A DNA stretch of 64,000 nt, taken from Xestospongia bergquistia (lineage: Eukaryota > Porifera > Demospongiae > Haplosclerida > Petrosiidae). Shown piece after piece: positions 12,534-63,575 of the stretch. The position numbers were made by a program, and so were the translations under genes. The notes beneath the pieces are model-generated. The model did no database searches and was not told where the DNA came from. It saw only the letters and a program-made list of their open reading frames with translations. The stretch is taken from the NCBI GenBank assembly GCA_963965975.1, contig OZ014411.1:12850501-12914500 (forward strand), in the 5' to 3' direction. Numbering within the stretch: the first letter of the stretch is position 1; every line of letters starts with the position of its first letter.

Positions 12534-12644
12534 ATTGTGTGAGTTTTGGATATCAATTAAACTTTGTATTATTAATAAAATTTAATAATAATTAACAAAT
12601 AGTAATATTGGAATTAGCGCCATTTGGAGGGAAAATCTGTAGTA

Positions 12645-25003: not shown

Positions 25004-25025
25004 AAACGAAAACAACCTTGGATAG

Positions 25026-25371: not shown

Positions 25372-25374
25372 ATG

Positions 25375-25382
25375 TTTTTTTT
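25375..25382 (+). terminator. T8 run after the structured element
   Basis: Eight T residues follow CAACACAACATG. A T run of this length is sufficient for RNA polymerase III termination. Its mirror is at 18,614-18,621. Confidence 0.4.
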
Positions 25383-31950: not shown

Positions 31951-32599
31951 GTAGAAACGAAGTAAAAGGAAAACTTTATTTAAAAATTCAAAAAATCAAT
32001 TGACAAAAATTATAAAATAAAACTAAAACGTTTGAGAACAAAAAAAGAAAAGAAAAAGATAAAGATGACATAACTAAAATGAAAAAGATGATCCAGCGAC
32101 GAGAGGTTATCCAACGAAGTACGAGATGATCCAACGATGAGGCGAATCGTAGAGAACATAGAGGAAGAAAGAGAGAGTTATTTGTAACAACTGCTGAATA
32201 GATGTGAGATGGATGGATGGAGAGATAACTCACCTTATAATAAAGTAAGCAAAATGAAGTACTTTTATATTATCAAGAAATCTCGTCATGCTTCAAATTG
32301 ACAACCTGTCAACACAAGCTTGTGACAAATTTGGCGGGAAACAACTACACGCGTGATCAACATTAATTGATTTTTAATTGATTTGATTAACAACTAATTG
32401 AATCTTCAAAATATACAAGTAGTTTTAACATTCTACAAGTTGTTAGTAGAAAGAAATATAGTTTTAAAGCAATGTGTATATACAATAAAAGGTATAATAT
32501 ATTCTATCAGAAACTTCCAAACTAAACAGTTTAGCAGTTTCAGCTTTTTCTATAACAATATGTTTGTATATATTATGAATTAGTGAAAGTAGTATAGAT

Positions 32600-37537: not shown

Positions 37538-37582
37538 ATGGGTACAGGACTGAGTCGACTGACTGAGGAAAAACAGTTGATT
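37538..37582 (+). CDS. First coding exon of right ankyrin gene, myristoylation-like start
   Basis: It encodes MGTGLSRLTEEKQLI and ends in phase 0 at GTAAGTT. Gly2/Ser6 fit the N-myristoylation pattern. A TTTTTTAG acceptor-like site ends at 37,528, so an upstream untranslated exon is likely. Exons of this gene are at 37,538, 42,017, 47,194, 50,905, 51,412, 55,715, 56,222, 57,514, 58,021, 59,327, 59,814 and 63,477, possibly ending at 63,879-63,947. In-frame joining gives 376 residues, or 398 with the candidate last exon: myristoylation signal, ankyrin cap, ten ankyrin repeats. The expected role is a membrane-tethered protein-binding scaffold (inference). It lies head to head with its paralogue at 4,868. 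Confidence 0.82.
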
Positions 37583-41570: not shown

Positions 41571-42016
41571 AAAATTCCTATCTATAGTTAAAAGGTGGTT
41601 GATAGTTCTACTTACCAAATTTGTTATATATATTACACATGGTACTAGTAATTGTGTAGGTTCTACATGTATTTTAATTGATCTTATGTAATCTTACATA
41701 CTATGTCACTTGGTGACATGACTGTAAATCAGTTTACCACTTGTAAACATGAATAATAACTACATAGAGCTATGTAAGATGACTATTATCATAGTCTGTT
41801 TCAACTTTGACATTAGTAGCTGACATATGGATGCATTTTAAATAGCCAATAAGTGTGATTTATTGTAGTATAATAGCTAACTATTAACTAATAAAATATG
41901 GTTATTATCAGAGTTACCTTAACCCTTTTTTTCCTTCCATACCTAGTAATTTTTATTTCAAACATTTTGAGTTTATGCAAATTTTATCATATACATTTAG
42001 TGTTTTTTTACCATAG

Positions 42017-42109
42017 AATGACAGTCTAATTGAATGTGGTATGAAGGGTGACTTGCCAGGAATAAAAGTTGCTCTCTCCAGAGGAGCTGATGTAAATGCA
42101 GCTGATTCT
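42017..42109 (+). CDS. Ankyrin N-cap exon, right gene (exon 2)
   Basis: 31 codons, phase 0 on both sides (acceptor TTTACCATAG, donor GTAAGTT). It reads NDSLIECGMKGDLPGIKVAL then SRGADVNAADS. The ECGxxGDLxGIxxALSRGADVNAAD pattern is a canonical first ankyrin repeat. Confidence 0.88.
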
Positions 42110-43395
42110 GTAAGTTAGTTTTATTGTTAAAACATTAAACCTTAAAATGAAGCAATCCATCTAAACATTTTTCCTTTTAATACAATTAATTCTAGACTTT
42201 GTTCTTAATGTTACAGATACCATCATTATGAATCTTAATTAGCAGTGATAAAGTTATACTTTTTGGACAAAAACACAATTCAATTCTTTCAGTAGTGTAA
42301 ACCTGAATTCCCTATTTAATATTTAAAATATTAACAAATTGACTGTTGTGATTTTTATTAAACTCAAGATATTTGATTAAGCTTTCCAAGATCTCAAAAA
42401 TATTCACTTTTATTTAATTCTTGTTCTAAAGCTTTTAAAGCTATTTATGGTCCATTCTCTGAATGGATTGGTGGAAACATTTCTCTAAGAAACACTTTAA
42501 ATAGTAGTTATGGTATTTCCTTGTGATTTCAGGAGCTAGTGAGCCAACTTCATAAGAATGTAACTCTTTTGTATAGACAAATTTGTAAAAAGCTTCCATT
42601 AATTTCTTTGACGTTTTCTTGATTTTAATTTATTTTCATCATGGAAATCCTTGTGTGATTTGAAAAAATTGATGTTAAACTTTTGGTGAATTCAAAAGTG
42701 AGTCTTGCTAACTGACATACATTCAGAGAATAGACCCTAAATGGCTTTAAAAGCTACTGAATCTTAATAAACATTATACTTTGGTATACTTCTTTATGTT
42801 TGAAAATTTGCCTTAGCATGTACTTTGATATTACAATAGTAACATAATTCAGTATCCTGTTACCTTAAAGCATTATTGTCACTTTTTTCAGTATTTAATG
42901 TATAAAACCAAGTAACTGAGGTAGTTTGGCTATCAAGACTTTACTAAACAAGAAAGATGTGTAACTAGACAGTTTTTAAGATACCGATTCATGTTTTTGT
43001 ACTCTTTGAATTAACTGCATAAACCTACAGTAGAAAAAACTATTGAGCATTTAATTTGATAAATACAATAGTAAATTTGAAGCACATTTGTGATTTTTAT
43101 TCATTTTGCATAGAGCATAGTATATTCATACTTGATTGACATGAGGCAAATAATATACGTTATGGAATTGTAAGATGCATTACATTTACTGGAAACTCTT
43201 AAGGACAGGTTTAATTACGAGTACTTAATTTTGCGATTTGGCTACCCCTCACATTTTGCTGGTACTAATAATTGCGGAATTGCAAAAAAAATCAACTACA
43301 CCCACTAATTATACCAAAAGTTAATGTTCTTCAACAATAGTATTATTGTATAACCAACAATAATTATTATTACAATCAGTTAATAAGATAATATC

Positions 43396-44919
43396 TTATT
43401 GTGTCATTATTTCATGAAATGGGTCTTCAGGTGGTAGGATTGTGCTTCCATCAGGAAGTCCTACAATCTCAGACTTCTTCCACCCCCTAGCAATTACTTC
43501 CTTGCCCCTGGTAGAGGTAAAAAAATTGAACAATTCAACAAGCCATTTCGCATGTAGTGGTTTAAGCACTGATAGACGAAAATCGACTTCGATATCTTCA
43601 AGTTGCTTTCCTGAGTCAAGCTGTTGCTTAACAGCACTCGAATAATATGTAACAAATTCTTTCCTCATTCTTTGCTTCGCACATCCATTCACTGTTAAGT
43701 CCAAAGGTTGAAAAAAGTGCGTCATGTTAGCTGGTACATACACACATTCAATGTTTAGTTCATCGAGCCGCTCCTTGACTTTGTCAGTCATCTGCCCTCT
43801 GAAAACATCCCAAACGAGTAAAGCCTTTTGATCCATAGGAAGCTTTAGCTCCTCTCGCTTTTTGGTGACATAAGGTGATATGATCTCATCTATCAGCTTT
43901 AAGCTTTCAATTTCATTTGACCAATGCTTTGGATTTTGTGTAACACAGAATCCAGAAGGAAATTTGAAATCACGAGGTTGACTAGCTTTAGTTTTGCCGC
44001 TGTATATTACATGCATCGGTAGAAAATCATTGGCCAAAGTGACAACAAAATTTAAAGTAATTGCACGTTTATCTGTGACACCTTTGATCGGAATGGTTGT
44101 TGATCCCTTTCGAGCCATGGTTGATTTGCCAACAGATACATATGATGATGGGGTTTGATCTGAGTTTAATACTAGCTCAGGTGGAATCCCATACTTCTTG
44201 ATTTTGCTGTCAATATCCTGCAAGTAATCTCTTCTGCATTCACTGTACAGTCCTTGAGGAACTGGTGGTCGTGAAGTAGTGCTTGCTCTTCTAGTGTACC
44301 CCATGCGTCGGTACAGTGACTGTACCCAGGAACGTGGCTTGCTGAAATTCTGAAGGTGCATGGAAGAGGATGGGTTACTAGCAATGAGTGCATCTGTTGC
44401 TGCTCGGACAACATGAATATTCACCACACCACCTTTTGCTCTTATTGCTTTCAGAAACTTTATCAGCTTTTTATCAAGATTAAGAAGAATTGGAGGACGA
44501 CCTTTTGGTTTGGCAGTGATTTCTACCACAGGCTGTGGATCACATTTCTTTCTCTTCTTTTCTAGCTCCTCACGATAAGCCTTCTTGAAGTATCTTATAG
44601 TGCTCTCTGGTAAGTTAGGAAATTCAGACAAGAAATGCTTTCTGGCTCTTTCATTACCATTTTCAAGTGCGTACTTTCCAATCATTGCACGCTGTGTAGG
44701 TGTGTAAGTTGTGTAAGTTCCACTACCACGTTTCCTTTTCGCTGAGGGTGCAGCAAGTTCTTTGTTGACAGCTGTTGGAACTTGCTGATATTCAACTACT
44801 CCTAGTCCTGACTCACTGAGTGTGGGAAGAGTGGAACAAAAGTCAGCCTCACTGATTTCAGATGTAGCTGGGAGTTGTGGGAGTTAGAGGCCTAAACATC
44901 CAAATCGGAAAAGAGACAT
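43396..44919 (-). pseudogene. pogo/Tigger-type DDE transposase, one early stop
   Basis: From ATG at 44,919 the frame is 507 codons with a single TAA at codon 12 (44,884-44,886). The next ATG (44,685) gives 429 residues but would lose the N-terminus. Layout in full numbering: KRKR nuclear-localisation-like cluster at 61-64; helix-turn-helix from about 75 (QRAMIGKYALENGNERARKH); a KGRPP basic hook near 139; DDE_1 catalytic core with Asp254 (LVLNSDQTPSS), Asp371 (LVWDVFRGQMT) and Asp407 (HFFQPLDLTVN), the last two 36 apart. All three acidic residues are present, so only the early stop argues against activity. The family moves by cut and paste at TA sites. The element's other ORF starts divergently 96 bp away. 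Confidence 0.85.
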
Positions 44920-45015
44920 CTTCAACTTTGACTTCAGACAGCTGCAACAAGATAGCCTGCCTAGTATGACCACGTGGTCACGCATGCGTATTAGACCCTT
45001 GAACTACAAACCAGT
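44920..45015. promoter_or_regulatory. Candidate bidirectional promoter inside the transposon
   Basis: The 96 bp between the divergent ATGs contain a perfect 12-base palindrome GACCACGTGGTC (44,968-44,979) with an E-box CACGTG. It is followed directly by a second palindrome, ACGCATGCGT (44,980-44,989), close to NRF1-type sites. The gap is GC-richer than its surroundings. Confidence 0.5.
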
Positions 45016-45540
45016 ATGTCAGATAGCTTGAAGATTCGATTCGTTTTTCTTTGTGGTTTGAGGGGATACCACGAGTATTGCAGTATCTGGACTTCAAGCT
45101 TACATGAAGTGCTAGAAGCAAAACAAGAATCTGGCAAAGCTTATGATCGCTTTGCAATCGCCTGCACTAAAAAGCTACGATCACGTCTGACTGAGTCTGT
45201 CGTTGGACATCTCCCCAAAGAAGTGTCAAGGTACACTTACTACATTATTTTACACGGTGCAAAAGTCACCGCAATGGTTATGGATATTCACCATTGAAGG
45301 TCGCCTCTAGTGCAGGTTGGCTTAGAAATCCCAATCCAAGTCACTGTAGAAATGGACTTAACTGAAAAAAATCGACAGTGCCTTGACAAGTACGAGACTC
45401 TAGTTGGCGAGAAGTACAAAGAGCCAGTGGATGGCAAATTTGAAGATGCAACAGACTCTATACTACAAAGATTGAAGGAGCCAGAGGACTGTGGAGAAGA
45501 TACGGACTCGAACTCTGACCTTGACATAGACCATGCATAG
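45016..45540 (+). pseudogene. HIRAN-like second ORF of the transposon, one internal stop
   Basis: 175 codons in one frame, interrupted only by TGA at 45,295-45,297. Family spacing suggests a CGA arginine mutated there, because the sequence resumes RSPLVQVGLEIPIQV without a shift. Conserved-looking blocks: RGYHEYCSIW (residues 16-25), YDRFAIA (43-49), VGHLPKEVSRY (63-73), LHGAKVTA, GLEIPIQVTV. The xYDxxAIA and VGxLP blocks fit the HIRAN domain, known from HLTF/Rad5 to bind 3' ends of single-stranded DNA. Related uncharacterised proteins seem common in sponges and cnidarians (recollection). The tail is acidic (EDTDSNSDLDIDHA). Its role in the transposon is unknown. Confidence 0.6.
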
Positions 45541-47193
45541 TTGTTTCTAATTAATCGAAAATTCGAAATTACGTTTATGAAATATTATATATTCGCGGGT
45601 ATTAAGTATTGCGATTTTGACCTAAATCGCAAAATTCGAAATTAATAGTACCCGTTATTAAACCTATCCCTAAGGTACATTCAAATTAATATGATCCATC
45701 TATTTTAATTGTCTCACATTATCTCACATGATCTTCAAATATACATTACAAACGTTGTGTATTAAACCACCCTAAGAGGTGGTTTTGCTGAATGTGAGTT
45801 GATATACATTGTACAAATATGTAAAATGTAATGAAAGGAACTGATTTGAGTTGGAATTGATTATATAAAAATGAAACAACAGTTATATCAGAAGACTATA
45901 ATATAAGTACAGGTTAAGTCTCAGGGATTTCACTTATGGACTACCATATTTCATTCTTCATTGTTTTTCCATGCAGTAGCTAATGAAACATAAGTAATGT
46001 ACCTCTGTAGAATAAAATGAAAGAAAATGAGATATTCATTTTCACTGTCAAATAACTTCATAATTTTGTATATTGTTTGTATAATAATAAAAGAGCAATG
46101 GTACAGAGTGACTTGAACTGATTATAGAACCTCTAAATTTAGTGAAATGATCTGTGTCTCATAGGAACAGGTTCCTTCTAGGTTTCTTTATGATGCATGT
46201 TGTAGATAGTGGCAGGTTGTCAGTTGTTAATAGTAATTATTAATTGATTCTTTCATCCCTTTCATTGAAGTGGTACATTTCTGTTGTGTTAGTTTTCTTA
46301 AGTGTTGTTATTGTGATAGCTGCAGATATTGTTCAAACTTCTTTTTTTGTTTATGTTATTTCATTGGTATTAAAGCTGAGTCATAACTATAATTATCTGT
46401 CTTGGTATTAAATCTTTAATTTCAAGAAATATTGAAGTATAACAAAGTGCCTTTCCTCTTATAAATTGTAATATTTTTAAGAATGTATAATGGTTTTCAT
46501 GTTTGATTTAATACAAATCTAAAATTCTTCTAGTCCAGCTGAACTATTATCAAACAATACAATAACTAAATATCCTTCCTGTCATTTATAGAGGCCATTT
46601 GTATTAAAACTTAAATGAGGCAGTATTTAAAAATTACAATATGTTGCATGATATTGAATTTAAGTGTTGATATGATTACAGTACTGGTATATTGGTCAGC
46701 TCTATACTTGGCATACTTATTGCTATTTCCATAATTTAAAGGATAGTCTTTTAAAAAGTACCGTCTCTTATTTACTTGTGAGTAACAAACTAAGTGAGTC
46801 ATATTGAAGCACAGATATGACAATAACATAAAAGACACTTGTTATATTTTTGTTTGGTACTCTACTGTTTATTTTGCAGCTTGTTTACCAGTCTCTTAGA
46901 TTACACTGTATGTAGTTCAAACCATCTCATATTGTTCATCTCCATTGAATTAGTTGTAATAAATGTACAAACACCAATTCAAAAAATTACTAAGTAGTAA
47001 TAGATGTAGTTATGTCATACATGTACAACATGATATAGATATAGACAATGTATAGATATATTATAATAATCATAATAATTAAAATGTAGAACTAAAGATT
47101 AGCTACTTTTATGAAGTCTGTGTTATTATACTATTAGTGTAACATGTTAATGGTCTAATTTGACAGTTAATATTTTGTTTGTTATTACAATAG

Positions 47194-47292
47194 TTTGGAT
47201 GGGCAGCTCTTCATTATGCAAGTTATGAAGGACATACTAGCATTGTTGAAATATTAGTCAACCATAATGTTGACATAAATATTGTTACTAAG
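47194..47292 (+). CDS. Ankyrin exon A1, right gene
   Basis: 33 codons: FGWAALHYASYEGHTSIVEI, then LVNHNVDINIVTK. It differs from later A exons by F1 and by S for N. Acceptor TTACAATAG, donor GTAATTC. Confidence 0.9.
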
Positions 47293-47699
47293 GTAATTCA
47301 GATCACAAGAACGAGTGTGTTTCACTTTAGTGTTTTAAGCTGTGTGAATAAATAAATATTAACTATTAAAAAAACATAGTGTAGACATTATAATATAAAA
47401 AAGACAGACAATTTAAAAGCTCAAAGTAGTAATGCCAGTATGAATATTTGTATATATAGTAGCCACATAGACTCAGTAGCTGCATTTGTGTTGTTTAGCT
47501 TAAGAAAAAGTTATAGCTATTGGAAATAAATCTCTCATTAGTGTTTCATTATGTTTACCATAAAAAAATTAATGCATCTCTATACACATTAATGTCAATT
47601 ATATGTAGCATAAGAAAGATAGATACTGTAAATATTATAGTAACATGTTTTCTCCTTTCTATAATTATGATGCTGTTACAACTTATGATCTGAATGTGT

Positions 47700-50445
47700 C
47701 CTTTAAAATATAATAGTTGGTAAGTATGATGAAATATAGTATAAATTCGAAGTATATTTATATCCAATATGTTCCTTTTTATTTACTCTATTGCTTTTCT
47801 TTTAATATATATGATGCTGTTGTTTCTTGTGATCTGCATGTGTCCTTTACAATATAATAGTCGGTAAGTATGATGAAATATAGTATAAATTCTAAGTGTA
47901 TTTAAATCTAATGTGTTCCTTTTTATTTACTCTATTCCTTTTCTTTTAATATATATAATGCTGTTGTCACTTGTGATCTGCATGTGACCTTTACAATATA
48001 TAGTCGGTAAGTGTGATGAAATATAGTATAAATTCTAAGTATATTTATATCCAATGTGTTCCTTTTTATTTACTCTATTGCTTTTCTTTTAATATATATG
48101 ACACTGTTGTTTCTTGTGATCTGCATGTGTCCTTTACAATATAATAGTCGGTAAGTATGATGAAATATAGTATAAATTCTAAGTGTATTTAAATCCAATG
48201 TATTCTTTTTTTGCTCTATTGCTTTTCTTTTAACATATATGATACTGTTATTACTTGTGATATGAACGTGTCCTTTACAATATAATAGTTTGTAAGTATG
48301 ATGAAATAAAGTATAAATTCTAAGTATATTTAAATCCAATATGTTCCTTTTATTTACTCTATTGCTTTTCTTTTCATATTTATGATGCTGTTATTACTTG
48401 TGATCTGAACATGTCCTTTACAATATAATAGGATGTAAGTGTGATGAAATATAGTATAAATTCTAAGTGTATTTAAATCCAATGAGTTCCTTTTTATTTA
48501 CTCTATTGCTTTTCTTTTCATATTTATGATGCTGTTATTGCTTGTGATCTGAACGTGTCCTTTACAATATAATAGGAGGTAAGTGTGATGAAATATAGTA
48601 AAAATTCTAAGTGTATTTAAATACAATGTGTTCCTTTTATTTCTCTATTGCTTTTCTTTTCATAATTATGGTGCTTTTATTATTTGTGATCTGAACATGT
48701 CCTTTACAATATAATAGAAGGTAAGTGTGAAGAAATATAGTATAAATTCGAAGTATATTTAAATCAAATGTGTTCCTTTTATTTACTCTATTGCTTTTCT
48801 TTTCATATATATGATACTGTTATTAATTGTGATCTGAACATCTCCTTTACAATATAATAGTTTGTAAGTATGATGAAATATAGTATAAAGTCTAAGTGTA
48901 TTTAAATCCAATGGGTACCTTTTATTTACTCTATTGCTTTTCTTTTCATATTTATGATGCTGTTATTGCTTGTGATCTGAACGTGTCCTTTACAATATAA
49001 TAGGAGGTAAGTGTGATGAAATATAGTAAAAATTCTAAGTGTATTTAAATACAATGTGTTCCTTTTATTTCTCTATTGCTTTTCTTTTCATAATTATGGT
49101 GCTTTTATTATTTGTGATCTGAACATGTCCTTTACAATATAATAGAAGGTAAGTGTGAAGAAATATAGTATAAATTCGAAGTATATTTAAATCAAATGTG
49201 TTCCTTTTATTTACTCTATTGCTTTTCTTTTCATATATATGATACTGTTATTAATTGTGATCTGAACATCTCCTTTACAATATAATAGTTTGTAAGTATG
49301 ATGAAATATAGTATAAAGTCTAAGTGTATTTAAATCCAATGGGTACCTTTTATTTACTCTATTGCTTTTCTTTTCATATTTATGATGCTGTTATTGCTTG
49401 TGATCTGAACGTGTCCTTTACAATATAATAGGAGGTAAGTGTGATGAAATATAGTATAAATTCTAAGTGTATTTAAATACAATGTGTTCCTTTTATTTCT
49501 CTATTGCTTTTCTTTTCATAATTATGGTGCTTTTATTATTTGTGATCTGAACATGTCCTTTACAATATAATAGAAGGTAAGTGTGAAGAAATATAGTATA
49601 AATTCGAAGTATATTTAAATCAAATGTGTTCCTTTTATTTACTCTATGGCTTTTCTTTTAATGTTTATGATGCCGTTATTTCTTGTATCTGAACGTGTCC
49701 TTTACAATATAATAGTCAGTAAGTATGATGAAATATAGCATAAATTCTAAGTGTATTTAAATCCAACGTGTTCCTTTTTATTGACTCTATTGCTTTTCTT
49801 TTCATATATATGATACTGTTATTACTTGTGATCTGAACGTGTCCTTTACACTATAATAGTTTGTAAGTATGATGAAATATAGTATAAATTTTAAGTGTAT
49901 TTAAATCCAATGTGTTCCTTTTTATTTACTCTATTGCTTTTCTTTTCATATTTATGATGTTGTTATTACTTGTGATCTGAACGTGTCCTTTACAATATAA
50001 TAGAAGGTAAGTGTGATGAATGTAGTATAAATTTTAAGTGTATTTAAATCCAATGTGTTCCTTTTTATTTACTCTATTGCTTTTCTTTTTATATATATAA
50101 TACTGTTGTTACTTGTGATCTGAATGTGTCCTTTAAAATATTTTATAGAAGGTAAGTGTGATGAATATAGTATAAATTCTAAGTATATTTAAATCCATTG
50201 TATTCCTTTACTTTTTTTATCTTTTAATGTATTATGATGCCATGATTATTTGTGATCTGAATGTGTTTTTTGCAATACAATAGATGGTAAGTTTGATGAA
50301 ATATAGTATAAATTCTAAGTGTATTTCAATACAATGTTTTCATTTTATTTACTCTATTGTTTTTTTTTCTGGTGTTATGATGCTGTGATAACTTGCGATC
50401 TGAATATGTCCTTTACAATATAATAGTTGGTAAGTGTGATCTAAC
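47700..50445 (+). repeat. Intronic satellite array 1, 20 junctions
   Basis: Donor-like GTAAG(T) motifs lie at 47,720, 47,864, 48,007, 48,151, 48,292, 48,435, 48,579, 48,721, 48,864, 49,007, 49,149, 49,292, 49,435, 49,577, 49,719, 49,863, 50,007, 50,152, 50,287 and 50,430, a spacing of 135-145 bp. Each is preceded by an AATAG-type acceptor and exactly three bases. A CTGAAC-type motif lies about 25 bases before the AG. The last units diverge (CTGGTGTTATGATGC). The array lies in the intron between exons A1 and B1. Confidence 0.95.
48436..49640 (+). repeat. 428-bp higher-order repeat in array 1
   Basis: The triplet of units with GAG, AAG and TTT spacers recurs at 48,579, 49,007 and 49,435, exactly 428 bp apart. 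Private variants are shared, such as GTGTGAAGAAATATAG and AATGGGTACC. Confidence 0.9.
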
Positions 50446-50904
50446 ATTTCTACACATGTTTTGTCATTATGGTAAATAAAGTATTTGTTGTATTTGGTCT
50501 GTTTTAATTATGAATAAATATTAAATTTTGTTGGAAGCTTTGCCTTATAAATATGTGAGTTTGATGTCTTTGTAAGGTATTCTAACTCATTTTCTACACT
50601 ACTAAGAATATTTATTAGTAACTTTTGTTATTATTGCACATTACTGTTAATTGTTAAAATTCTATTTATAATAGTTTGTCTATAAAAGTGTCTATTATGA
50701 CGTAATGATTATGTTTGTATTGCAGAGTGTTATTTGTATTAGTAACATTATTTCTAAGAATTGTTGAGAGTTGCTTTTTATCTCAGTTTGCAAGGTTACT
50801 AGCATAGTGATGTAATACATTATAACATTGATAACATATATAATATACAACTATTTTAATATGTTGTCTTGGTTGACATTAATGGTTTATTATAATATAT
50901 TTAG

Positions 50905-51003
50905 GTGGGATCTACTCCAGTCATGTTAGCGGCAAAGAAGGGGCACAAGGATATTGTTTTGATTTTAACACAGAAAGGAGCCAATCTAGAAGTTGTTAAC
51001 AAA
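50905..51003 (+). CDS. Ankyrin exon B1, right gene
   Basis: 33 codons: VGSTPVMLAAKKGHKDIVLI, then LTQKGANLEVVNK. Acceptor TATATTTAG, donor GTAAGTA. The same protein sequence is encoded at 57,514, 59,327 and 63,477. Confidence 0.9.
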
Positions 51004-51411
51004 GTAAGTATTTACTTACATACAAGAAGTAGCTAAAAATAAAATGTAAGTTCATTTTTCTTAAAGAGAGTTGTTAATTATGATAGTATTGTAATTGTTG
51101 TGATACTGTTACAATTGACTTATTGTCTTTAATGATATGTTAAATAAGATGAATATTGGAAGGAGAGCAGCATACAAAGCCCTGATCATACTATAAGAAA
51201 AAAGTAATTATTTTACAATTTGTGCAGTGAACAATTTTCCTACTTATTAGACACAAATCAATAGACAAAGTTGACATGTTATATTTATCATGACATTTAA
51301 GGAGGATAGCTTAAGATTAGCTACTTTTATGAAGTCTGTGTTATTGTACTATTAGTGTAACATGTTAATGGTCTAATTTGAGAGTTAATATTTTGTTTGT
51401 TATTACAATAG

Positions 51412-51510
51412 ATTGGATGGGCAGCTCTTCATTATGCAAGTTATGAAGGACATATAAATATTGTTAAAATGTTAGTCAACCATAATGTTGACATAAATAT
51501 TGTTACTAAG
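51412..51510 (+). CDS. Ankyrin exon A2, right gene
   Basis: 33 codons starting IGWAALHYASYEGHINIVKM. It differs from A3-A5 at I for T, K for E and M for I, which makes it the most diverged A exon. A 408-bp B-to-A intron precedes it. Confidence 0.9.
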
Positions 51511-51889
51511 GTAATTCAGATCACAAGAACTAGTATGTTTCTCTGTAGTGTTTTAAGCTGTGTGAATGAATAGATATTAACTATTAAAAATCATAGTGTA
51601 GACATTATGATATAAAAAAGACAGACAAATTAAAAAGCTCAAAATAGTATGAATATTTGTATATAGTAGCCACATAGCCTCAGTACCTCCATTTGTGTTG
51701 TTTAGCTTAAGAGAAATTTATAGCTATTGGAAATACATCTCTCCTTAGTTTTTCATCATGTTTTACAATTAAAAAATTAATGCATCTCTTTACACATTAA
51801 CATCAATTATATGTAGGATAAGAAAAAGAGGCACTGTAAATATTAAAGTAACAATACTTGAAAACATGTTTTCTTATTTCTATAATTAT

Positions 51890-54800
51890 GATGCTGTTTT
51901 AACTTATGATTTCAATGTGTCGTTTACAATGTAATAGGAGGTAAGTGTGATGAAATATAGTATAAATTCTAAGTGTATTTAAATCCAATGTATTCCTTTT
52001 ATTTACTCTATTGCTTTTTTTTCATATTTATGATGTTGTTATTACTTGTGATCTGAACGTGTCCTTTACAATATAATAGGAGGTAAATGTCATGAATATA
52101 GTATAAATTCTAAGTGTATTTAAATCCAATGTGTTCCTTTTTATTTACTCTATTGCTTTTCTTTTCATATATATGATACTGTTATTACTTGTGATCTGAA
52201 CGTGTCCTTAATAGTTTGTAAGTATGCTAAAATATAGTATAAATTCTAAGTATATATTTAAATCCAATGTGTTCCTTTATATTTACTCTATTACTTTTCT
52301 TTTCATATTTATGATGCTGTTATTACTTGTGATCTGAACGTGTCCTTTATAATATAATAGTTGGTAAGTATGATGAAATATAATAAAAATTCTAATTCGA
52401 ATTTAAATCCAATTTGTTTTAATCTATTGATTTTCTTTTCATATATATGATACTGTTATTACTTGTGATCTGAACGTGTCCTTTACAATATAATAGTTTG
52501 TAAGTATGATGAAATATAGTATAAATTCTAAGTGTATTTAAATCCAATATGTCCCTTTTTATTTACTTTATTGCTTTTCTTTTCAAATATATGATACTGT
52601 TATTACTTGTGATCTGAACGTGTCCTTTACAATATAATAGTTTGTAAGTATGATGAAATATAGTATAAATTCTAAGTGTATTTAAATCCAATTTGTTTTA
52701 CTCTATTCCTTTTCTATTCATATTTATGATGCTATTATTATTTGTGATCTGAACGTGTCCTTTACAATATAATAGTCAGTAAGTGTGATGAAATATAGTA
52801 TAAATTCTAAGTGTATTTAAATCCAATGTATTCCTTTTTATTTACTCTATTGCTTTTTTTTCATATTTATGATACTGTTATTACTTGTGATCTGAATGTT
52901 TCATTTACAATATAATAGTCTGTAAGTATGATGAAATATAGTATAAATTCTAAGTGTATTTAAATCCAATGTTTTACTTTTTATTTACTCTATTGCTTTT
53001 CTTTTTATATATATGATACTGTTATTACTTGTGATCTGAACGTATCCTTTACAATATAATAGTTTGTAAGTGCGATGAAATATAGTATAAATTCTAAGTG
53101 TATTTAAATCCAATGAGTTCCTTTTTATTTACTCTATTGCTTTTCTTTCCATATTTATGATGCTGTTATTACTTGTGATCTGAACGTGTTCTTTACGATA
53201 TAATAGTCGGTAAGTGTAATGAAATGTAGTATAAATTTTAAGTGTATTTAAATCCAATGTATTCCTTTTTATGTACACTATTGCTTTTTGTTTCATATTT
53301 ATGATTGCTGTTATTACTTGGCATCCGAATGTCTCCTTTACAATATAATAGTTGGTTAGTGTGATGAAATAAAAATAGTATAAAATATAAGTCTATTTAA
53401 ATCCAATGTGTTCCTTTTTATTTAATCTATTGCTTTTCTTTTCATATTTATGATGCTGTTATTACTTGTGATCTGAACATGTCCTTTACAATATAATAGT
53501 TTGTAAGTGTAATGAAATATAGTATAAATTTTAAGTGTACTTAAATCCATTGTGTTCCTTTTTATTTACTCTATTGCTTTCTTTACATATATATAATACT
53601 GTTATTACTTGTGATCTGAACGTGTCCTTTACAATATAATAGTTTGTAAGTATGATGAAATATAGTATAAATTCTAAGTGTATTTAAATCCAATGAGTTC
53701 CTTTTTATTTACTCTATTGCTTTTCTTTCCATATTTATGATGCTGTTATTACTTGTGATCTGAACGTGTTCTTTATAATATAATAGTCAGTAAGTATGAT
53801 CAAATATAGTATGAATTCTAAGTGTATTTAAATCCAATTTGTTTTCCTCTATTGGTTTTCTATTCATATTTATGATGCTATTATTATTTGTGATCTGAAC
53901 GTGTCCTTTACAACATAATAGATTGTAAGTGTGATGAAATATAGTTTAAATTCTAAGTGTTTATAAATCCAATGTGTTCCTTTTTATTTACTCAATTGCT
54001 TTTCTTTTTATATATATGATACTGTTATTACTTGTGATCTGAACGTGTCCTTTACAATATAATAGTCGGTAAGTGCGATGAAATAAAAATAGCATAAATT
54101 CTAATTGTATTTAAAACCAATGTGTTCCTTTTTATTTTCTCTATTGCTTTTTTATATGTTTATGATGCTGTTATTATTTGTGATCTGAACGTTTCCTTTA
54201 CAATATAATAGGAGGTAAGTGTGATGAAATATAGTATAAATTCTAAGTGTATTTAAATCCAATGTGTTCGTTTTTATTTACTCAATTGCTTTTCTTTTCA
54301 TGTATATAATACTGTTATTACTTGTGATCTGAACGTGTCCTTTACAATATAATAGTTTGTAAGTATGATGAAATATAGTATATATTCTAAATAATTTAAA
54401 TCCAATGTGTTCCTTTTTATTTACTCTATTACATTCCTTTTAATATATATGATACTGTTATTACTTGTGATCTGAACATATCCTTTACAATATATTAGGA
54501 GGTAAATGTGATGAAATATAGTATAAATTCTAAGTGTATTTTAAATCCAATGTGTTCCTTTTTTATTTACTCTATTGCTTTTCTTTTAATATATATGATG
54601 ATGTTATTACTTGTGTTTTGAATGTGTCCTTTACAATATAATAGTTTGTAAGTGTGATGAACTATAGTATAAATTCTAAGTGTATTTAAATCCAATGTGT
54701 TCCTTTTTATTTACTCTATTGCTTTTCTTTTCATATATATGATACTGTTATTACTTGTGATCTGAACGTGTCCTTTACAATATAATAGTTTGTAAGTATG

Positions 54801-55250
54801 ATGAAATATAGTATAAATTCTAAGTGTATTTAAATCCAATGTGTTCCTTTTTATTTACTTTATTGCTTTTCTTTTTATATGTATGATACTGTTATTACTT
54901 GTGATCTGAATGTGTCCTTTACAATATGATAGTCGGTAAGTGTGATGAAATATAGTAAAAATTCTAAGTGTATTTAAATCCAATGTGTTTCTTTTTTTAT
55001 TTACTCTATTGCTTTTCTTTTCATATTTATGATACTGTTATTACTTGTGATCTGAACGTGTCCTTTACAATATAATAGTCGGTAAGTGTGATGAAATGAA
55101 TATAGTATAAAATCTAAGTGTATTTCATTCCAATGTTTTCATTTTATTTACTCTATTGTTTTTCTTTCTTTCTTGTGTTATGATGCTGTAATAACTTGCG
55201 ATCTGAATATGTCCTTTACAATAATTTAAAATAGTTGGTAAGGCGTGATC
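51890..55250 (+). repeat. Intronic satellite array 2, about 24 junctions
   Basis: Junctions run from 51,942 to 55,239 with spacers TTT, TCG, GAG, TCA, TCT, TTG and ATT. The longest array in the window. Some units have deletions (near 52,210) or a changed donor (GTTAGT near 53,355). Confidence 0.95.
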
Positions 55251-55714
55251 TTACATTTCTACACATGTTTTGTCATTATGGTAAAGAAAGTATTTTTTTG
55301 TATTTGGTCTGTTTGAATTATGAATAAATATTAAATTTTGTTGGAAGCTTTGTCTTATAAATATGTGAGTTTGATGTCTTTGTAAGGGATTATAGCTCAT
55401 TCTCTACACTACTAAGAATATTTATTAGTAACTTTTGTTATTACTACACATTACTGTTAATTGTTAAAATTCTATTTATAATAGTTTGTCTATAAAAGTG
55501 TCTATTATGACATAATGATTATGTTTGTATTGCAGAGTGTTATTTGTATTAGTAACACTATTTCTAAGAATTGTTGAGAGTTGCTTTTCATCTTAGTTTG
55601 CAAAGTTACTAGCATAGTGATGTAATACATTATAACATTGACAACATATATAATATACAACTGTTTTGATATGTTGTCTTGGTTGACATTAATGGTTTAT
55701 TATAATATATTTAG

Positions 55715-55813
55715 GTTGAGTTTACTCCAGTTATGTTAGCGGCAAAGAAGGGGCACAAGGATATTGTTTTGATTTTAACACAGAAAGGAGCCAATCTAGA
55801 AGTTGTTAACAAA
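55715..55813 (+). CDS. Ankyrin exon B2, right gene
   Basis: Reads VEFTPVMLAAKKGHKDIVLI then the common end. VEF replaces VGS in the first turn, so the usual glycine of the repeat is lost. The frame and splice sites are intact. Confidence 0.88.
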
Positions 55814-56221
55814 GTAAGTATATATTTACATACAAGAAGTAGCTAAAAATAAAATGTAAGTTCATTTTTCTTAAAGAGAGTTGTTAATTATGATAGTATT
55901 GTAATTGTTGTGATACTGTTACAATTGACTTATTGTCTTTAATGATATGTTAAATAAGATGAATATTGGAAGGAGAGCAGCATACAAAGCCCTGATCATA
56001 CTATAAGAAAAAAGTAATTATTTTACAATTTGTGCAGTGAACAATTTTCCTACTTATTAGACACAAATCAATAGACAAAGTTGACATGTTATATTTATCA
56101 TGACATTTAAGGAGGATAGCTAAAGACTAGCTACTTTTATGAAGTCTGTGTTATTGTACTATTAGTGTAACATGTTAATGGTCTAATTTGAGAGTTAATA
56201 TTTTGTTTGTTATTACAATAG

Positions 56222-56320
56222 ATTGGATGGGCAGCTCTTCATTATGCAAGTTATGAAGGACATACAAACATTGTTGAAATATTAGTCAACCATAATGTTG
56301 ACATAAATATTGTTACTAAG
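56222..56320 (+). CDS. Ankyrin exon A3, right gene
   Basis: IGWAALHYASYEGHTNIVEI, then LVNHNVDINIVTK; identical in protein to A4 and A5. Confidence 0.9.
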
Positions 56321-56689
56321 GTAATTCAGATCACAAGAACAAGTGTGTTTCACTTTAGTGTTTTAAGCTGTGTGAATGAATAGATATTAACTATTAAAAA
56401 GCATAGTGTAGACATTATGATATAAAAATAACAGACAAATGAAAAAGCTCAAAATAGTATGAATATTTGTATATAGTAGCCACATAGACTCAGTAGCTGC
56501 ATTTGCGTTGTTTAGCTTAAGAGAAATTTATAGCAATAGGAAATACATTTGTCCTTAGTTTTTCATCATGTTTTACAATTAAAAAATTAATGCATCTCTA
56601 TACACATTAACATCAATTATATGTAGGATAATAAAAAGAGGCACTGTAAATATTAAAGTAACAATACTTGAAAACATGTTTTCTTCTTT

Positions 56690-57050
56690 CTATAATGATG
56701 ATGCTGTTACTACTTGTGATCTAAACGTGTCCTTTACAATATAATAGTCGGTAAGTGTGATGAAATATAATATAAATTCTAAATATATTAAAATCCATTG
56801 TGTTCCTTTTTATTTACTCTATTGCTTTTCTTTTCATGTTTATGATACTGTTATTACTTGTGATCTGAATGTGTCCTTTACAATATAATAGTCGGTAAGT
56901 GTGATGAAAGTATAAAATCTAAGTGTATTTCAATACAATGTTTTCATTTTATTTACTCTATTTTTTTGTCTTTATTAATGATGTTATGATGCTGTGATAA
57001 CTTACGATCTAAATATGTCCTTTACAATATAATAGTTGGTAAGTGTGATC
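56690..57050 (+). repeat. Intronic satellite array 3, 3 junctions
   Basis: Junctions near 56,750, 56,896 and 57,038 with TCG, TCG and TTG spacers. The minimal form of the array, in a 1.19-kb A-to-B intron. Confidence 0.9.
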
Positions 57051-57513
57051 TAACATTTCTACACATGTTTTGTCATTATGGTTAAGAAAGTATTTGTTGT
57101 ATTTTATCTGTTTGAATTATGAATAAATATTAAATTTTGTTGGAAGCTTTGCCTTATAAATATGTGAGTTTGATGTCTTTGTAAGGTATTCTAACTCATT
57201 TTCTACACTACTAAGAATATTTATTAGTAACTTTTGTTATTATTGCACATTACTGTTAATTGTTAAAATTCTATTTATAATAGTTTGTCTATAAAAGTGT
57301 CTATTATGACGTAATGATTATGTTTGTATTGCAGAGTGTTATTTGTATTAGTAACATTATTTCTAAGAATTGTTGAGAGTTGCTTTTTATCTTAGTTTGC
57401 AAAGTTACTAGCATATTGATGTAATACATTATAACATTGATAACATATATAATATACAACTATTTTAATATGTTGTCTTGGTTGACATTAATGGTTTATT
57501 ATAATATATTTAG

Positions 57514-57612
57514 GTGGGATCTACTCCAGTCATGTTAGCGGCAAAGAAGGGGCACAAGGATATTGTTTTGATTTTAACACAGAAAGGAGCCAATCTAGAA
57601 GTTGTTAACAAA
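57514..57612 (+). CDS. Ankyrin exon B3, right gene
   Basis: Same protein as B1. The 407-bp intron that follows is almost identical to those after B1 and B2, showing recent duplication of B-intron-A blocks. Confidence 0.9.
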
Positions 57613-58020
57613 GTAAGTATTTACTTACATACAAGAAGTAGCTAAAAATAAAATGTAAGTTCATTTTTCTTAAAGAGAGTTGTTAATTATGATAGTATTG
57701 TAATTGTTGTGATACTGTTACAATTGACTTATTGTCTTTAATGATATGTTAAATAAGATGAATATTGGAAGGAGAGCAGCATACAAAGCCCTGATCATAC
57801 TATAAGAAAAAAGTAATTATTTTACAATTTGTGCAGTGAACAATTATCCTTCTTATTAGACACAAATCAATAGACAAAGTTGACATGTTACATTTATCAT
57901 GACAATTAAAGAGAATAGCTAAAGATTAGCTACTTTTATGAAGTCTGTGTTATTATACTATTAGTGTAACATGTTATTGGTCTAATTTGACAGTTAATAT
58001 TTTGTTTGTTATTACAATAG

Positions 58021-58119
58021 ATTGGATGGGCAGCTCTTCATTATGCAAGTTATGAAGGACATACAAACATTGTTGAAATATTAGTCAACCATAATGTTGA
58101 CATAAATATTGTTACTAAG
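58021..58119 (+). CDS. Ankyrin exon A4, right gene
   Basis: Same protein as A3. Acceptor TTACAATAG, donor GTAATTC. Confidence 0.9.
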
Positions 58120-58489
58120 GTAATTCAGATCACAAGAATGAGTGTGTTTCACTTTAGTGTTTTAAGCTGTGTGAATGAATAGATATTAACTATTAAAAAA
58201 TCATAGTGTAGACATTATGATATAAAAAAGACAGATAAATTAAAAGCTCAAAATAGTATGAATATTTGTAAATAGTAGCCACATAGACTCAGTAGCTCCA
58301 TTTGTGTTGTTTAGCTTCAGAGAACTTTATAGCTATTGGAAATATATCTGTCCTTAGTTTTTCATCATGTTTTACCATTAAAATATTAATGGATCTCTAT
58401 ACACATTAACATCAATTATATGTAAGATAAGAAAAACAGGCACTGTAAATATTAAAGTAACAATACTTGAAAACATGTTTTCTCCTTTC

Positions 58490-58865
58490 TATAATTATGA
58501 TACTGTTACTATTTGTGATCTGAACCTGTCCTTTACAATATGATAGTCGGTAAGTGTGATGAAATATAGTATAAATTCTAAGCGTATTTAAATCCAATGT
58601 GTTCCTTTTTTTATTTACTCTGTTGCTTTTCTTTTCATATTTATGATACTGTTATTACTTGTGATCTCAACGTGTCCTTTACAATATAACAGTCGGTAAG
58701 TGTGATCAAATAATTATAGTATAAAATCTAAGTGTATTTCAATCCAATGTTTTCATTTTATTTAATCTATTGTTTTTCTTTCTTTCTGGTGTTATGATGC
58801 TGCGATAACTTGCAATCTGAATATGTACTTTACAATAATTTATAATAGTTGGTAAGTGTGAGATA
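58490..58865 (+). repeat. Intronic satellite array 4, 3 junctions
   Basis: Junctions near 58,549, 58,695 and 58,852 (TCG, TCG, TTG), the same short form as array 3. Confidence 0.9.
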
Positions 58866-59326
58866 ACATTTCTACACATGTTTTGTCATTATGGTAAAGA
58901 AAGTATTTGTTGTATTTGGTCTGTTTGAATTATGAATAAACATTAAATTTTGTTGGAAGCTTTGCCTTATAAATATGTGAGTTTGATGTCTTTGTAAGGG
59001 ATTCTAGCTCATTCTCTACACTACTAAGAATATTTATTAGTAACTTTTGTTATTACTACACATTACTGTTAATTGTTAAAATTCTATTTATAATAGTTTG
59101 TCTATAAAAGTGTCTATTATGACGTAATGATTATGTTTGTATTGCAGAGTGTTATTTGTATTAGTAACACTATTTCTAAGAATTGTTGAGAGTTGCTTTT
59201 TATCTTAGTTTGCAAAGTTACTAGCATAGTGATGTAATACATTATAACATTGATAACATATATAATATACAACTGTTTTGATATGTTGTCTTGGTTGACA
59301 TTAATGGTTTATTATAATATATTTAG

Positions 59327-59425
59327 GTGGGATCTACTCCAGTCATGTTAGCGGCAAAGAAGGGGCACAAGGATATTGTTTTGATTTTAACGCAGAAAGG
59401 AGCCAATCTAGAAGTTGTTAACAAA
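59327..59425 (+). CDS. Ankyrin exon B4, right gene
   Basis: Same protein as B1, with one silent change (ACG for ACA). The following intron is 388 bp, about 20 bp shorter than its paralogues. Confidence 0.9.
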
Positions 59426-59813
59426 GTAAGTATTTATTTACATACAAGAAGTAGCTAAAAATAAAATGTAAGTTCATTTTTCTTAAAGAGAGTTGTTAAT
59501 TATGATAGTATTGTAATTGTTGTGATACTGTTACAATTGACTTATTGTCTTTAATGATATGTTAAATAAGATGAATATTTGAAGATAACTCGATATAAGA
59601 AAAAAATAATTATTTTACAATTTGTGCAGTGATCAATTTTCCTACTTATTAGAAACAAATCAATAGACAAAGTTGACATGTTATATTTATCATGACAATT
59701 AAAGAGGATAGCTAAAGATTAGCTACTTTTATGAAGTCTGTGTTATTGTACTATTATTGTAACATGTTAATGGTCTAATTTGAGAGTTAATATTTTGTTT
59801 GTTATTACAATAG

Positions 59814-59912
59814 ATTGGATGGGCAGCTCTTCATTATGCAAGTTATGAAGGACATACAAACATTGTTGAAATATTAGTCAACCATAATGTTGACATAAAT
59901 ATTGTTACTAAG
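59814..59912 (+). CDS. Ankyrin exon A5, right gene
   Basis: Same protein as A3 and A4; the last A-type exon in the window. Confidence 0.9.
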
Positions 59913-60229
59913 GTAATTCAGATCACAAGAATGAGTGTGTTTCACTGTAGTGTTATAAGCTGTATGAATGAATAGATATTAACTATTAAAAAAACATAGT
60001 GTAGACATTATGATATAAAAAAGACAGACAAATTAAAAAGCTCAAAATAGTATGAATATTTGTATATAGTAGATACATCATAGAGTTTCATCATGTTTTA
60101 CCATTAAAAATTAATGCATCTCTATACACATTAACATAAATTATATGTAGGATAAGAAAAACAGGCACTGTAAATATTAAAGTAACAATACTTGAAAAAA
60201 TTTTTTCTCCTTACTATAATTATGATGCT

Positions 60230-63010
60230 GTTATAACTTATGATTTGAATGTGTCGTTTACAATATAATAGGAGGTAAGTGTGATAAAATAAAGTATAAA
60301 TTTTAAATGTATTTAAATCCAATGTGTTTTTTTTATTCTATTTCCTTTCTTTTCATATATATGATACTGTTATTACATGTGATCTGAACGCGTCCTTTAC
60401 AATATAATAGTTTGTAAGTGTGATGAAATATAGTATAAATTCTAAGTATTAAAATCCAATGTCTTCCTTTATATTTATTCTATTGCTTTTCTTTTCATAT
60501 ATATGATACTGTTATTACTTGTGATCTGAACGTGTCCTTTACAATAGTTTGTAAGTGTGATGAAATATAGTATAAATTCTAAGTGTATTTAAATCCAATG
60601 TGTTCCTTTTTATTTACACTATTGCTTTTCTTTTCACATATATCATGCTGTTATTACTCGTGATCTGAATATGTGTTTACAATATAATAGTTTGTAAGTG
60701 TGATGAAATATAGTATAAATTCTAAGTGAATTTAAATCCAATGTGTTCCTTTTTATTTACTCTGTTGCCTTTCTTTTGATATATGTGATACTATTATTAC
60801 TTGTGATCTGAACGTATTCTTTACAATATAATAGTCGGTAAGTATGATGAAATATAGTATAAATTCTAAGTGTATTTAAATCCAATTTGTTCCTTTTTAT
60901 TTACTTAATTGCTTTTCTTTTCATATATATGATACTGTTATTACTTGTGATCTGAACATGTCCTTTACAATATAATAGGAGGTAAGTGTGTTGAAATATA
61001 GTATAAATTCTGAGTGTATTTAAATCCAATGTGTTACTTTTTATTTACTCTATTGATTTTCTTTATATATATATGATACTGTTATTACTTGTGATCTGAA
61101 CGTGTCCTTTACAATATAATAGTTTGTAAGTGCGATGAAACATAGTATAAATTCTAAGTGTATTTAAATCCAATGTGTTCCTTTTTTATTTACTCTATTG
61201 CTTTTCGTTTAATATATATGATGCTGTTATTACTTGTGATCTGAACGTGTCCTTTACAATCTAATAGTCGGTGAGTGTGATGAAATATAGTATAAATTCT
61301 AAGTGTATTTAAATCCAATGTGTTCCTTTTTATTTACTCTATTGCTTTTCTTATCATATATATGATACTGTTATTACTTGTGATCTGAATATGTCCTTTG
61401 CAATATAATAGTCGGTAAATGTGATGAAATATAGTATAAATTCTAAGTGTATTTAAATCCAATGAGTTCCTTTTTATTTACTCTATTGCTTTTCTTTTCA
61501 TATACATGATACTGTTATTACTTGTGATCTGATGTTGTCCTTTACAATATAATAGTCGGTAAGTATGATGAAATATAGTATAAATTCTAAGTGTTTTTAA
61601 ATCAAATTTGTTTCTTTTTATTTACACTATTGCTTTTCTTTTTATAAATATGATACTGTTATTACTTGTGATCTGAACCTGTCCTTTACAATATAATAGT
61701 TTGTAAGTGTGGTTAAATATAGTATAAATTCTAAGTGTATTAAAATCCAATGTGTTCCTTTTTATTTACTCTATTGCTTTTCTTTTAATAAATATGATCC
61801 TGTTATTACTTTTGATCTGAACGTGTCCTTTACAATATAATAGGAGGTAAGTGTGATGAAATATAGTATAAATTCTAAGTGTATTTAAATCCAATGTGTT
61901 CCTTTTTATTTACTCTATTGCTTTTTTTTTCATATATATGATACTGTTATTACTTTTTATCTGAATGTGTCCTTTACAATATAATAGTTGGTAAGTGTTA
62001 CGAAATATAGTATAAATTCTAAGTGTATTTAAATCCAATGAGTTCCTTTTTATTTACTCTATTGCTTTTCTTTTCATATATATGATGGTGTTATTACTTG
62101 TAATTTGAACGTTTCCTTTACAATATAATAGTTGGTAAGTGTGATAAAATATAGTATAAATTCTAAGTGTATTTAAATCCAATATGTTCCTTTTTATTTA
62201 CTCTATTGCTTTTATTTTCATATATATGATACTGTTGTTACTTGTGATCTGAACGTGTCTTTTACAATATAATAGTGTGTAAGTATGATGAAATATAGTA
62301 TAAATTCTAAGTGTATTTAAATCCAATATGTTTCTTTTTATTTACTCTATTGGTTTTTTTTTTCATATATATGATACTGTTATTACTTGTGATCTGAACG
62401 TGTCCTTTACAATATAATAGTTTGTAAGTGTGATGAAATATAGTATAAATTCTAAGTATATTTAAATCCAATGTCTTCCTTTTTTTGCTCTATTGCTTTT
62501 TTAAATATATATGATATTGTTATTACTTGTGATCTGAACATGTCCTTTACAATATATATTAGTCGGTAATTGTGATGAAATATAGTATAAGTTCTAAGTG
62601 TATTTAAATCCAATGTGTTCCTCTTTATTTACTCTATTGCTTTTCTTTTCATATATATGATACTGTTTTTACTTGCGATCTCAATGTCTCCTTTACAATA
62701 TAATAGTCGGTAATTGTTATGAAATATAGTATAAATTATAAATGTATTTAAATCCAATGTATTCCTTTTTATTTACTCTTTTTTTCTTTTAATGTATTAT
62801 GATGCGATGATTATTTGTGATCTGAATGTGTTTTTGCAATACAATAGATGGTAAGTTTGATGAAATATAGTATAAATTCTAAGTGTATTTCAATCCAATG
62901 TTTTCATTTTATTTACTCTATTGTTTTTTTTCTTTCTGGTGTTATGATGCTGTGATAACTTGCGATCTGAATATGTCCTTTACAATAATTTATAATAGTT
63001 GGTAAGTGTG
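60230..63010 (+). repeat. Intronic satellite array 5, about 20 junctions
   Basis: Junctions run from 60,273 to 63,002 with TTT, TCG, GAG, TTG and TGT spacers. One unit (near 60,545) lost the acceptor tail so that ACAATAG directly precedes TTTGTAAG. Its last two units match the divergent last two units of array 1. Confidence 0.95.
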
Positions 63011-63476
63011 GTCTTACATTTCTACACATGTTTTGTCATTATGGTAAAGAAAGTATTTGTTGTATTTGGTCTGTTTGAATTATGAATAAATATTAAATTT
63101 TGTTGGAAGCTTTGTTTTATAAATATGTGAGTTTGATTTCTTTGTAAGGTATTCTAGTTCATTCTCTACACTACTAAGAATATTTATTAGTAACTTTTGT
63201 TATTACTACACATTACTGTTAATTGTTAAAATTCTATTTATAATAGTTTGTCTATAAAAGTGTCTATTATGACGTAATGATTATGTTTGTATTGCAGAGT
63301 GTTATTTATATTAGTAACACTATTTCTAAGAATTGTTGAGAGTTGCTTTTTATCTTAGTTTGCAAAGTTACTAGCATAGTGATGTAATACATTATAACAT
63401 TGATAACATATATAATATACAACTGTTTTGATATGTTGTCTTGGTTGACATTAATGGTTTATTATAATATTTATAG

Positions 63477-63575
63477 GTGGGATCTACTCCAGTCATGTTA
63501 GCAGCAAAGAAGGGGCACAAGGATATTGTTTTGATTTTAACACAGAAAGGAGCCAATCTAGAAGTTGTTAACAAA
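63477..63575 (+). CDS. Ankyrin exon B5, right gene
   Basis: Same protein as B1. The acceptor is TATTTATAG rather than TATATTTAG. Homology to the other B-to-A introns fades by about 63,850, so this is the last pair of the expanded array. Confidence 0.9.

Follow-up and report, generated by a model that had tools for sequence, protein, structure and literature searches.

The introns of an ankyrin-repeat gene of the sponge Xestospongia bergquistia contain tandem arrays of a unit of about 144 bp, and we propose that these units may be alternative exons of a single codon each, placed in tandem and selected through competition among RNA pairings, that would alter one residue at a turn between ankyrin repeats. 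On the sequence evidence gathered here, we place this proposal just short of probable. The stretch analysed, called the window below, comprises 64,000 nt (GenBank assembly GCA_963965975.1, contig OZ014411.1, positions 12,850,501 to 12,914,500, forward strand), and all coordinates are positions within it. Judged by its exon-intron structure, the DNA is eukaryotic. The units, the invariance of their junctions, the variable codon, the reading phase and a complementarity to the host intron are established. The strongest facts are the junction invariance, the three variable bases and the location of a 13-nt complement at the start of the host intron.

Host gene and unit arrays

Two copies of the ankyrin-repeat gene lie in the window in divergent orientation, the minus-strand copy pointing to base 1 and the plus-strand copy spanning from about 37.5 kb to the window end. 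Each copy apparently opens with a short exon (MGTRLSRLTEEKQLI / MGTGLSRLTEEKQLI), followed by a second exon and then by alternating exons B and A, the exon borders of both copies being predicted from the sequence. Exons B and A measure 99 nt each and encode one ankyrin repeat apiece, according to the family match of the joined exon translations. Every exon border found is in phase 0 in both gene copies, as the initial annotation had stated for the host exons. Six B-A blocks are in view, five on the plus strand (blocks 1 to 5) and one on the minus strand (block R), and arrays of the unit occupy the B-to-A intron in all six. The predicted exons and the arrays are the following:

37538-37582, plus strand: predicted first coding exon of the plus-strand gene (MGTGLSRLTEEKQLI), with a phase-0 end
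42017-42109, plus strand: predicted second coding exon of the plus-strand gene, phase 0
4824-4868, minus strand: predicted first coding exon of the minus-strand gene copy
4358-4450, minus strand: predicted second coding exon of the minus-strand gene copy
47194-47292, plus strand: exon B of block 1 (FGWAALHYASYEGHTSIVEILVNHNVDINIVTK), 99 nt, phase 0, ankyrin family match of joined exon translations
47660-50445, plus strand: array 1, 20 units, TTG TCG TCG TCG TTT GAT GAG AAG TTT GAG AAG TTT GAG AAG TCA TTT AAG AAG ATG TTG
50905-51003, plus strand: exon A of block 1 (VGSTPVMLAAKKGHKDIVLILTQKGANLEVVNK)
51412-51510, plus strand: exon B of block 2
51880-55255, plus strand: array 2, 24 units
55715-55813, plus strand: exon A of block 2, starting with VEF instead of VGS
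56222-56320, plus strand: exon B of block 3
56695-57050, plus strand: array 3, 3 units, TCG TCG TTG
57514-57612, plus strand: exon A of block 3
58021-58119, plus strand: exon B of block 4
58490-58865, plus strand: array 4, 3 units, TCG TCG TTG
59327-59425, plus strand: exon A of block 4
59814-59912, plus strand: exon B of block 5
60215-63015, plus strand: array 5, 20 units
63477-63575, plus strand: exon A of block 5
1773-1871, minus strand: exon B of block R (second, divergent gene copy)
840-1440, minus strand: array R, 4 junctions (GAG AAG AAG TTT) plus an apparent unit with a deleted junction
288-386, minus strand: exon A of block R

The initial annotation had reported about 70 junctions in five arrays. 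Five arrays with exactly 70 junctions (20, 24, 3, 3, and 20) were indeed found on the plus strand; a sixth, at approximately 840-1440 on the minus strand, had been overlooked and adds four junctions, so that 74 could be aligned. Junctions were located by likeness to the consensus, and an invariant AG or GT was not demanded: a scan tolerating up to 14 mismatches across 41 flanking bases yielded 66 on the plus strand and 4 on the minus strand, and four further plus-strand junctions (50149, 52215, 55235, and 62999) were taken from the array periodicity. The motif AATAG-NNN-GTAAGT, with at most one mismatch, matched 82 times in the window against 3.3 expected in shuffled sequences. Spacing within arrays ranges from 135 to 156, with a single exception of 197 in the minus-strand array, which reads as a deletion that would have removed a whole junction.

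The units are head-to-tail tandem monomers and as such qualify as satellite DNA. The opening and closing units of an array look like those at the same place in other blocks and unlike the interior units, a pattern that unequal exchange would produce by expanding and contracting the interior. Of note, array 1 contains, at 48576-49574, two and two-thirds copies of a near-identical three-unit repeat (GAG-AAG-TTT), a recent local amplification.

Conservation of the junctions and variability of the triplet

Exactly three bases separate AG from GT in all 74 aligned junctions, in agreement with the initial annotation, and AG, GT and the A at position +4 are each invariant (74/74). The full GTAAGT is exact in 66 units. 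Hence, every unit holds three bases flanked by a canonical acceptor and a canonical donor sequence with the frame kept, as would be expected of a 3-nt micro-exon. The initial annotation had further claimed that the triplet varies while the splice-like bases on either side stay nearly fixed, and had made its case depend on AG and GTAAGT varying less than the rest of the unit. Both points held. The mean non-consensus frequency was 1.35% at the eight AG/GTAAGT columns and 9.1% over the unit, and random sets of eight columns were equally conserved with P = 0.00013. When a template of two columns, three skipped and six columns was rotated through 144 placements round the unit, the AG-NNN-GTAAGT placement ranked first of the 144 on both counts, its flanks varying least (0.0135) and its middle most (0.405); among placements without overlap to it, the next values were 0.019 for the flanks and 0.297 for the middle.

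On a tree of the units built without the triplet, the three triplet columns required 13, 25, and 17 changes, more than any other of the 144 columns, for which the mean was 3.1 and the maximum 11. Treated as one character, the whole triplet took 31 steps, compared with a mean of 46.5 and a minimum of 42 when triplets were shuffled over the tips. Recombination of old alleles adds to such step counts and does not explain the presence of two to three common alleles in each of the adjacent columns. A mutation hot spot due to CpG decay was also considered and rejected, since it accounts for TCG, TTG, and TCA only, and 27 of the 31 whole-triplet steps remain after CpG-type changes are merged. AG followed by GTRAGT also occurs outside the arrays (four times at a spacing of 3 and nine times at a spacing of 0), so that a single such motif means little.

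The codons and their donors

Eleven kinds of triplet were observed: TTT (20), TCG (17), GAG (11), TTG (10), AAG (7), TCA (3), ATG (2), and GAT, TCT, ATT, and TGT (once each). They encode S (21), F (20), E (11), L (10), K (7), M (2), and D, I, and C (one each). All are sense codons, as the initial annotation had noted: no stop was present in the 74 units, against 9.1 expected when the three columns are shuffled independently. This avoidance of stops is weak evidence only.

At a genuine donor, weak intronic bases should need a G as the last base of the exon, and an A at +7 would lengthen the pairing with U1. Altered GTAAGT motifs were found in 8 of the 47 units whose triplet ends in G and in none of the 27 others (Fisher P 0.024; P 0.03-0.09 when triplets were simulated on the tree at three rates). 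The +7 A was present in 14 of the 27 units whose triplet does not end in G versus 6 of the 47 ending in G (Fisher P 0.0008; P 0.001-0.013 in the corresponding simulations). Compensation between the last triplet base and the donor is thus suggested by these counts, although it is modest and not proof.

A putative docking site after exon B

A conserved stretch of the unit, CTTGTGATCTGAA, is complementary to TTCAGATCACAAG, which occupies positions +5 to +17 after exon B. The complement is perfect over 13 nt in five of the six blocks and over 12 nt in block R, where the last base is changed. The match was picked from the tail of weak opposite-strand blastn hits because of its place, and then tested. 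The putative docking sites are:

47297-47309, plus strand: block 1, 13-nt perfect complement of CTTGTGATCTGAA
51515-51527, plus strand: block 2
56325-56337, plus strand: block 3
58124-58136, plus strand: block 4
59917-59929, plus strand: block 5
1756-1768, minus strand: block R, 12 of 13 bases pair

The energy of pairing between the unit consensus and the 25 nt after exon B ranged from -20.2 to -22.3 kcal/mol across the six blocks, compared with -6.3 to -10.6 kcal/mol for 22 other splice-site flanks (six after A, six before B, six before A, and four after exons 1 and 2, two of which, on the minus strand, were taken from segments beginning one base early). Shuffled units reached the observed docking energy in 0-3 of 1,000 trials per block. 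In block 3, shuffled docking sites were as good in 2 of 300 trials (P 0.007), the site at +5 was the only 13/13 Watson-Crick match in the 350 nt of the upstream intron, and shuffles of the whole upstream intron did as well in 1 of 60 (P 0.017); pairing in the downstream intron of this block was no better than in 60 shuffles (P 0.68). With G-U pairs counted, at least 12 of the 13 positions of the docking core are paired in 66 of the 74 units and all 13 in 44, and four of the eight units below 12 belong to the 12 end units.

About 22 bases separate the end of a CTGAAC motif from the triplet, and the final base of this motif is C or T in 73 of 74 units. The initial annotation had described the motif as branch-point-like. 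A motif of this kind near the acceptor is indeed present, and that description is incomplete in that the same stretch complements the start of the host intron.

This is the layout of the mutually exclusive exon 6 cluster of Dscam1 in insects, where the intron that follows the constitutive exon is described as carrying one docking sequence, and many complementary selectors precede the tandemly duplicated variable exons (PMC8042237, PMC6071210). Here, a candidate docking site lies in the intron flanking the cluster in six of six blocks, as far as complementarity goes, and the unit-level pairing above gives a candidate selector at most variable exons. The differences are that the variable exon would be 3 nt long, that the array is satellite-like, that there are several arrays per gene, and that the docking site touches the 5' splice site. 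Duplication of one arm of an intronic stem-loop has been proposed as a way in which competing selectors are made (PMC6071210).

Proposed mechanism and its consequences

In the mechanism that we propose, each unit would consist of a selector overlapping the branch region, a 3' splice site, one codon forming a 3-nt exon, and a strong 5' splice site, and units would have multiplied through tandem duplication. The docking site would be paired with the selector of a single unit at any one time and would thereby move the weak 5' splice site of exon B (GTAATT) beside the acceptor of the chosen unit. Exon B would be joined to the codon, the docking site leaving with the first intron, and the GTAAGT of the codon would then be spliced to exon A, giving a product made of B, one variable codon, and A. 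Stepwise splicing is natural here because a 3-nt exon could hardly be bound at both ends simultaneously; it has also been proposed for a one-nucleotide exon (PMC4674806). The choice of residue would be separate for each block, at the turn between two ankyrin repeats. A repressor of unpaired units would be needed, for which hrp36 in Dscam offers a parallel (PMC8042237), and none was seen in the window. We infer that the sites are spliced, that pairing guides the choice, that a single unit is chosen, and that the residue affects binding.

The site of the variable codon falls between ...NIVTK and VGSTPV... in the protein. Alignment to a designed ankyrin protein places it between the two residues preceding G-x-T-P, in the turn linking repeats, at positions that are presumably among those randomised in DARPin libraries. 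In designed ankyrin repeats, randomised surface positions are described as forming a binding face, with a beta-turn at the start of an internal repeat (PMC8683736), and ankyrin-type binding is described as occurring via a concave surface (PMC8229355). Exons B and A vary around this point as well, the first codon of B encoding F, I, or V and exon A starting with VGS, VEF, or EGS. In exon A of block 2, a cluster of changes lies at the very start (55715-55723, VEF for VGS), adjoining the presumed insertion point of the variable codon.

The broader possibility is that a repeat protein is diversified residue by residue, with up to 24 single-codon exons per array chosen by pairing and the turns set independently; we find this conceivable, though more doubtful than otherwise. 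If true, splicing could choose among 20x24x3x3x20 = 86,400 combinations in the five plus-strand arrays, which would correspond to 7x5x2x2x6 = 840 proteins when distinct amino acids are counted at one residue per array. Splicing choice of the Dscam kind would be extended to the smallest exon that can encode a residue, a tandem satellite would serve as intron and coding repertoire together, and a route would be suggested by which RNA pairing selects exons that fall below the size needed for exon definition. The mapping of very short exons from sequencing reads is described as difficult (PMC8042270), so that similar arrays could go unnoticed in other genomes.

Single 3-nt micro-exons are known from mouse Ncam and Drosophila Troponin T and share with our units the one-codon exon between splice sites (PMC8042270). 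They are named there as single exons, in contrast to the rows of up to 24 with differing codons found here. Among the matches listed in open-licence PubMed Central, no title or abstract opening described arrays of one-codon exons, and the same collection yielded no papers on tandemly duplicated, mutually exclusive microexon arrays or on 3-nt microexons together with recursive splicing.

Points against the proposal and rival explanations

Several observations weigh against single-codon exons chosen by pairing. The 13-nt match is unremarkable across the whole window (BLAST E 6.9), and its weight comes from its place in the intron. With G-U pairs allowed, the block 3 intron offers another 13/13 match at +241 and 17 places with 12/13. 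Pairing is weaker at the array ends (mean -13.4 for first units and -15.5 for last units versus -20.1 for interior ones), and the six blocks share the same first 16 nt after exon B, which leaves no differences for covariation. Pairing could block splicing as well as bridge the sites, given the overlap of the docking site with the 5' splice site and of the selector with the branch region. A purine-rich stretch of exon A also pairs with the unit, at -20.7 (in block R, -21.2 versus -20.2 for the docking site), shuffles being as good in 8-16 of 1,000. We placed this partner below the docking site because it was a best-window pick, its longest perfect run is 7, and it sets purine-rich against pyrimidine-rich sequence; it remains an unexplained rival partner and weakens the uniqueness of the docking site. 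The absence of stops is not significant when taken over the 11 kinds of triplet (P 0.30). As related copies, the 74 units are not independent tests; the triplet is still partly linked to its unit (31 steps versus 46.5), so that inheritance explains part of the pattern, and recombination inflates the tree steps. Depletion of indels at the junction is weak: of 73 events in all, one lies at the margin of the 5' splice site. No clear constraint is visible in exon B, where nonsynonymous (dN) and synonymous (dS) divergence are 0.034 and 0.036 (0.023 and 0.105 in exon A). Finally, nothing in the analysed sequence accounts for how splicing from unit to unit would be prevented.

The exon A stretch just mentioned corresponds to bases 30-54 of each copy (e.g., 50934-50958), and its partner is the pyrimidine-rich part of the unit.

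The initial annotation offered three readings, of which single-codon micro-exons found support at the sequence level; recursive splicing stations and a satellite spreading as an intron did not. If the one-codon exons were real and joined serially (recursively), each array would place a peptide of variable sequence, at most 24 residues long, between two repeats. The conservation, phase and stop evidence fits this equally well, and stepwise splicing would go well with the strong GTAAGT that follows every codon and with an intron length of about 141 nt. However, the docking site would be gone after the first step, which leaves the selector pairing purposeless, and array length ranges from 3 to 24 units across blocks while the exons stay at 99 nt; we regard serial joining as rather unlikely. 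The sites might otherwise be splicing stations or decoys that aid or delay removal of a long intron, with no codon kept in the mRNA. Eighteen of the 74 units (those with GAG or AAG) also read AG directly followed by GTAAGT, the zero-length ratchet form, and can be read as NAGNAG acceptors. Juxtaposed acceptors and donors mark ratchet points in Drosophila (PMC8605326), and the near-touching of acceptor and donor inside an intron is shared with the units, although three bases intervene here. Against this, 56 units lack the zero-length form, and no triplet starts with GT, so that the codon would be kept for want of a regenerated donor to drop it. The three-unit introns, of about 1.2 kb, are hardly in need of stations, and a limit of variation to exactly three bases would go unexplained. 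We consider stations quite improbable, and classical zero-length recursive splicing, which needs AG directly before GT, was rejected.

A non-functional intronic satellite with chance splice-like bases, in which the triplet is a hot spot of mutation or conversion, would account for the head-to-tail arrays, the higher-order repeats, the copy numbers that vary from block to block, and the relatedness of neighbouring units. Approximately 11% of the columns outside the triplet are unchanged on the tree, and a further patch with fairly high variation sits some 52-58 bases ahead of the triplet, both in keeping with such an origin. In our arrays, in contrast, the variation centres on three bases with an invariant splice dinucleotide on either side; that both features rank first of 144 would have to be chance, as would the donor compensation and the docking match, which makes a purely passive satellite unlikely. 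An introner-like mobile unit, the 3 bp being target-site duplications of repeated insertion, recalls introner families described with target-site duplications of 3-9 bp (PMC9860276). The unit occurs only in tandem, with no clear copy elsewhere in the window, and repeated insertion at one point would not yield differing triplets at each junction, so that we judge this origin highly improbable. The suggestion that the satellite spreads as an intron is left unsupported rather than contradicted, there being no clear copy outside this type of intron in the window.

Origin of the unit and other features of the window

No match to Rfam was obtained at the gathering threshold, and the core pattern of the unit had no match in prokaryotic and viral contig collections, which carry little weight since they are non-eukaryotic. 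A blastn search of the array-masked window with a doubled unit consensus returned no convincing ancestor. Two weak resemblances, at 32425-32493 (69% over 70 columns, E 0.001) and 41841-41932 (64%, E 0.007), lie in AT-rich sequence, were obtained with the low-complexity filter off, and are perhaps due to chance in such sequence.

Between blocks, the segment of about 460 nt from the last unit to exon A (50442-50904 and counterparts) diverges by only 3.2%, compared with 3.3 and 3.9% for the exons and 8.1% for the intron ahead of the array. Relative to the minus-strand gene copy, the plus strand carries a 2.5-kb insertion with imperfect inverted ends at 43198-45676, inside which lies a DDE_1 transposase frame of 495 amino acids (43396-44883, minus strand). 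Segmental duplications, both direct and inverted, occur between the gene copies with 96 to 99.4% identity, in the following segments:

12550-14106, 19250-20816, and 23007-24571
17576-19042 and 24954-26421

A 15-bp minisatellite with the unit TTAGACATTATGGGA and an inverted relative were also observed, at 16238-16610 and 21368-21484.

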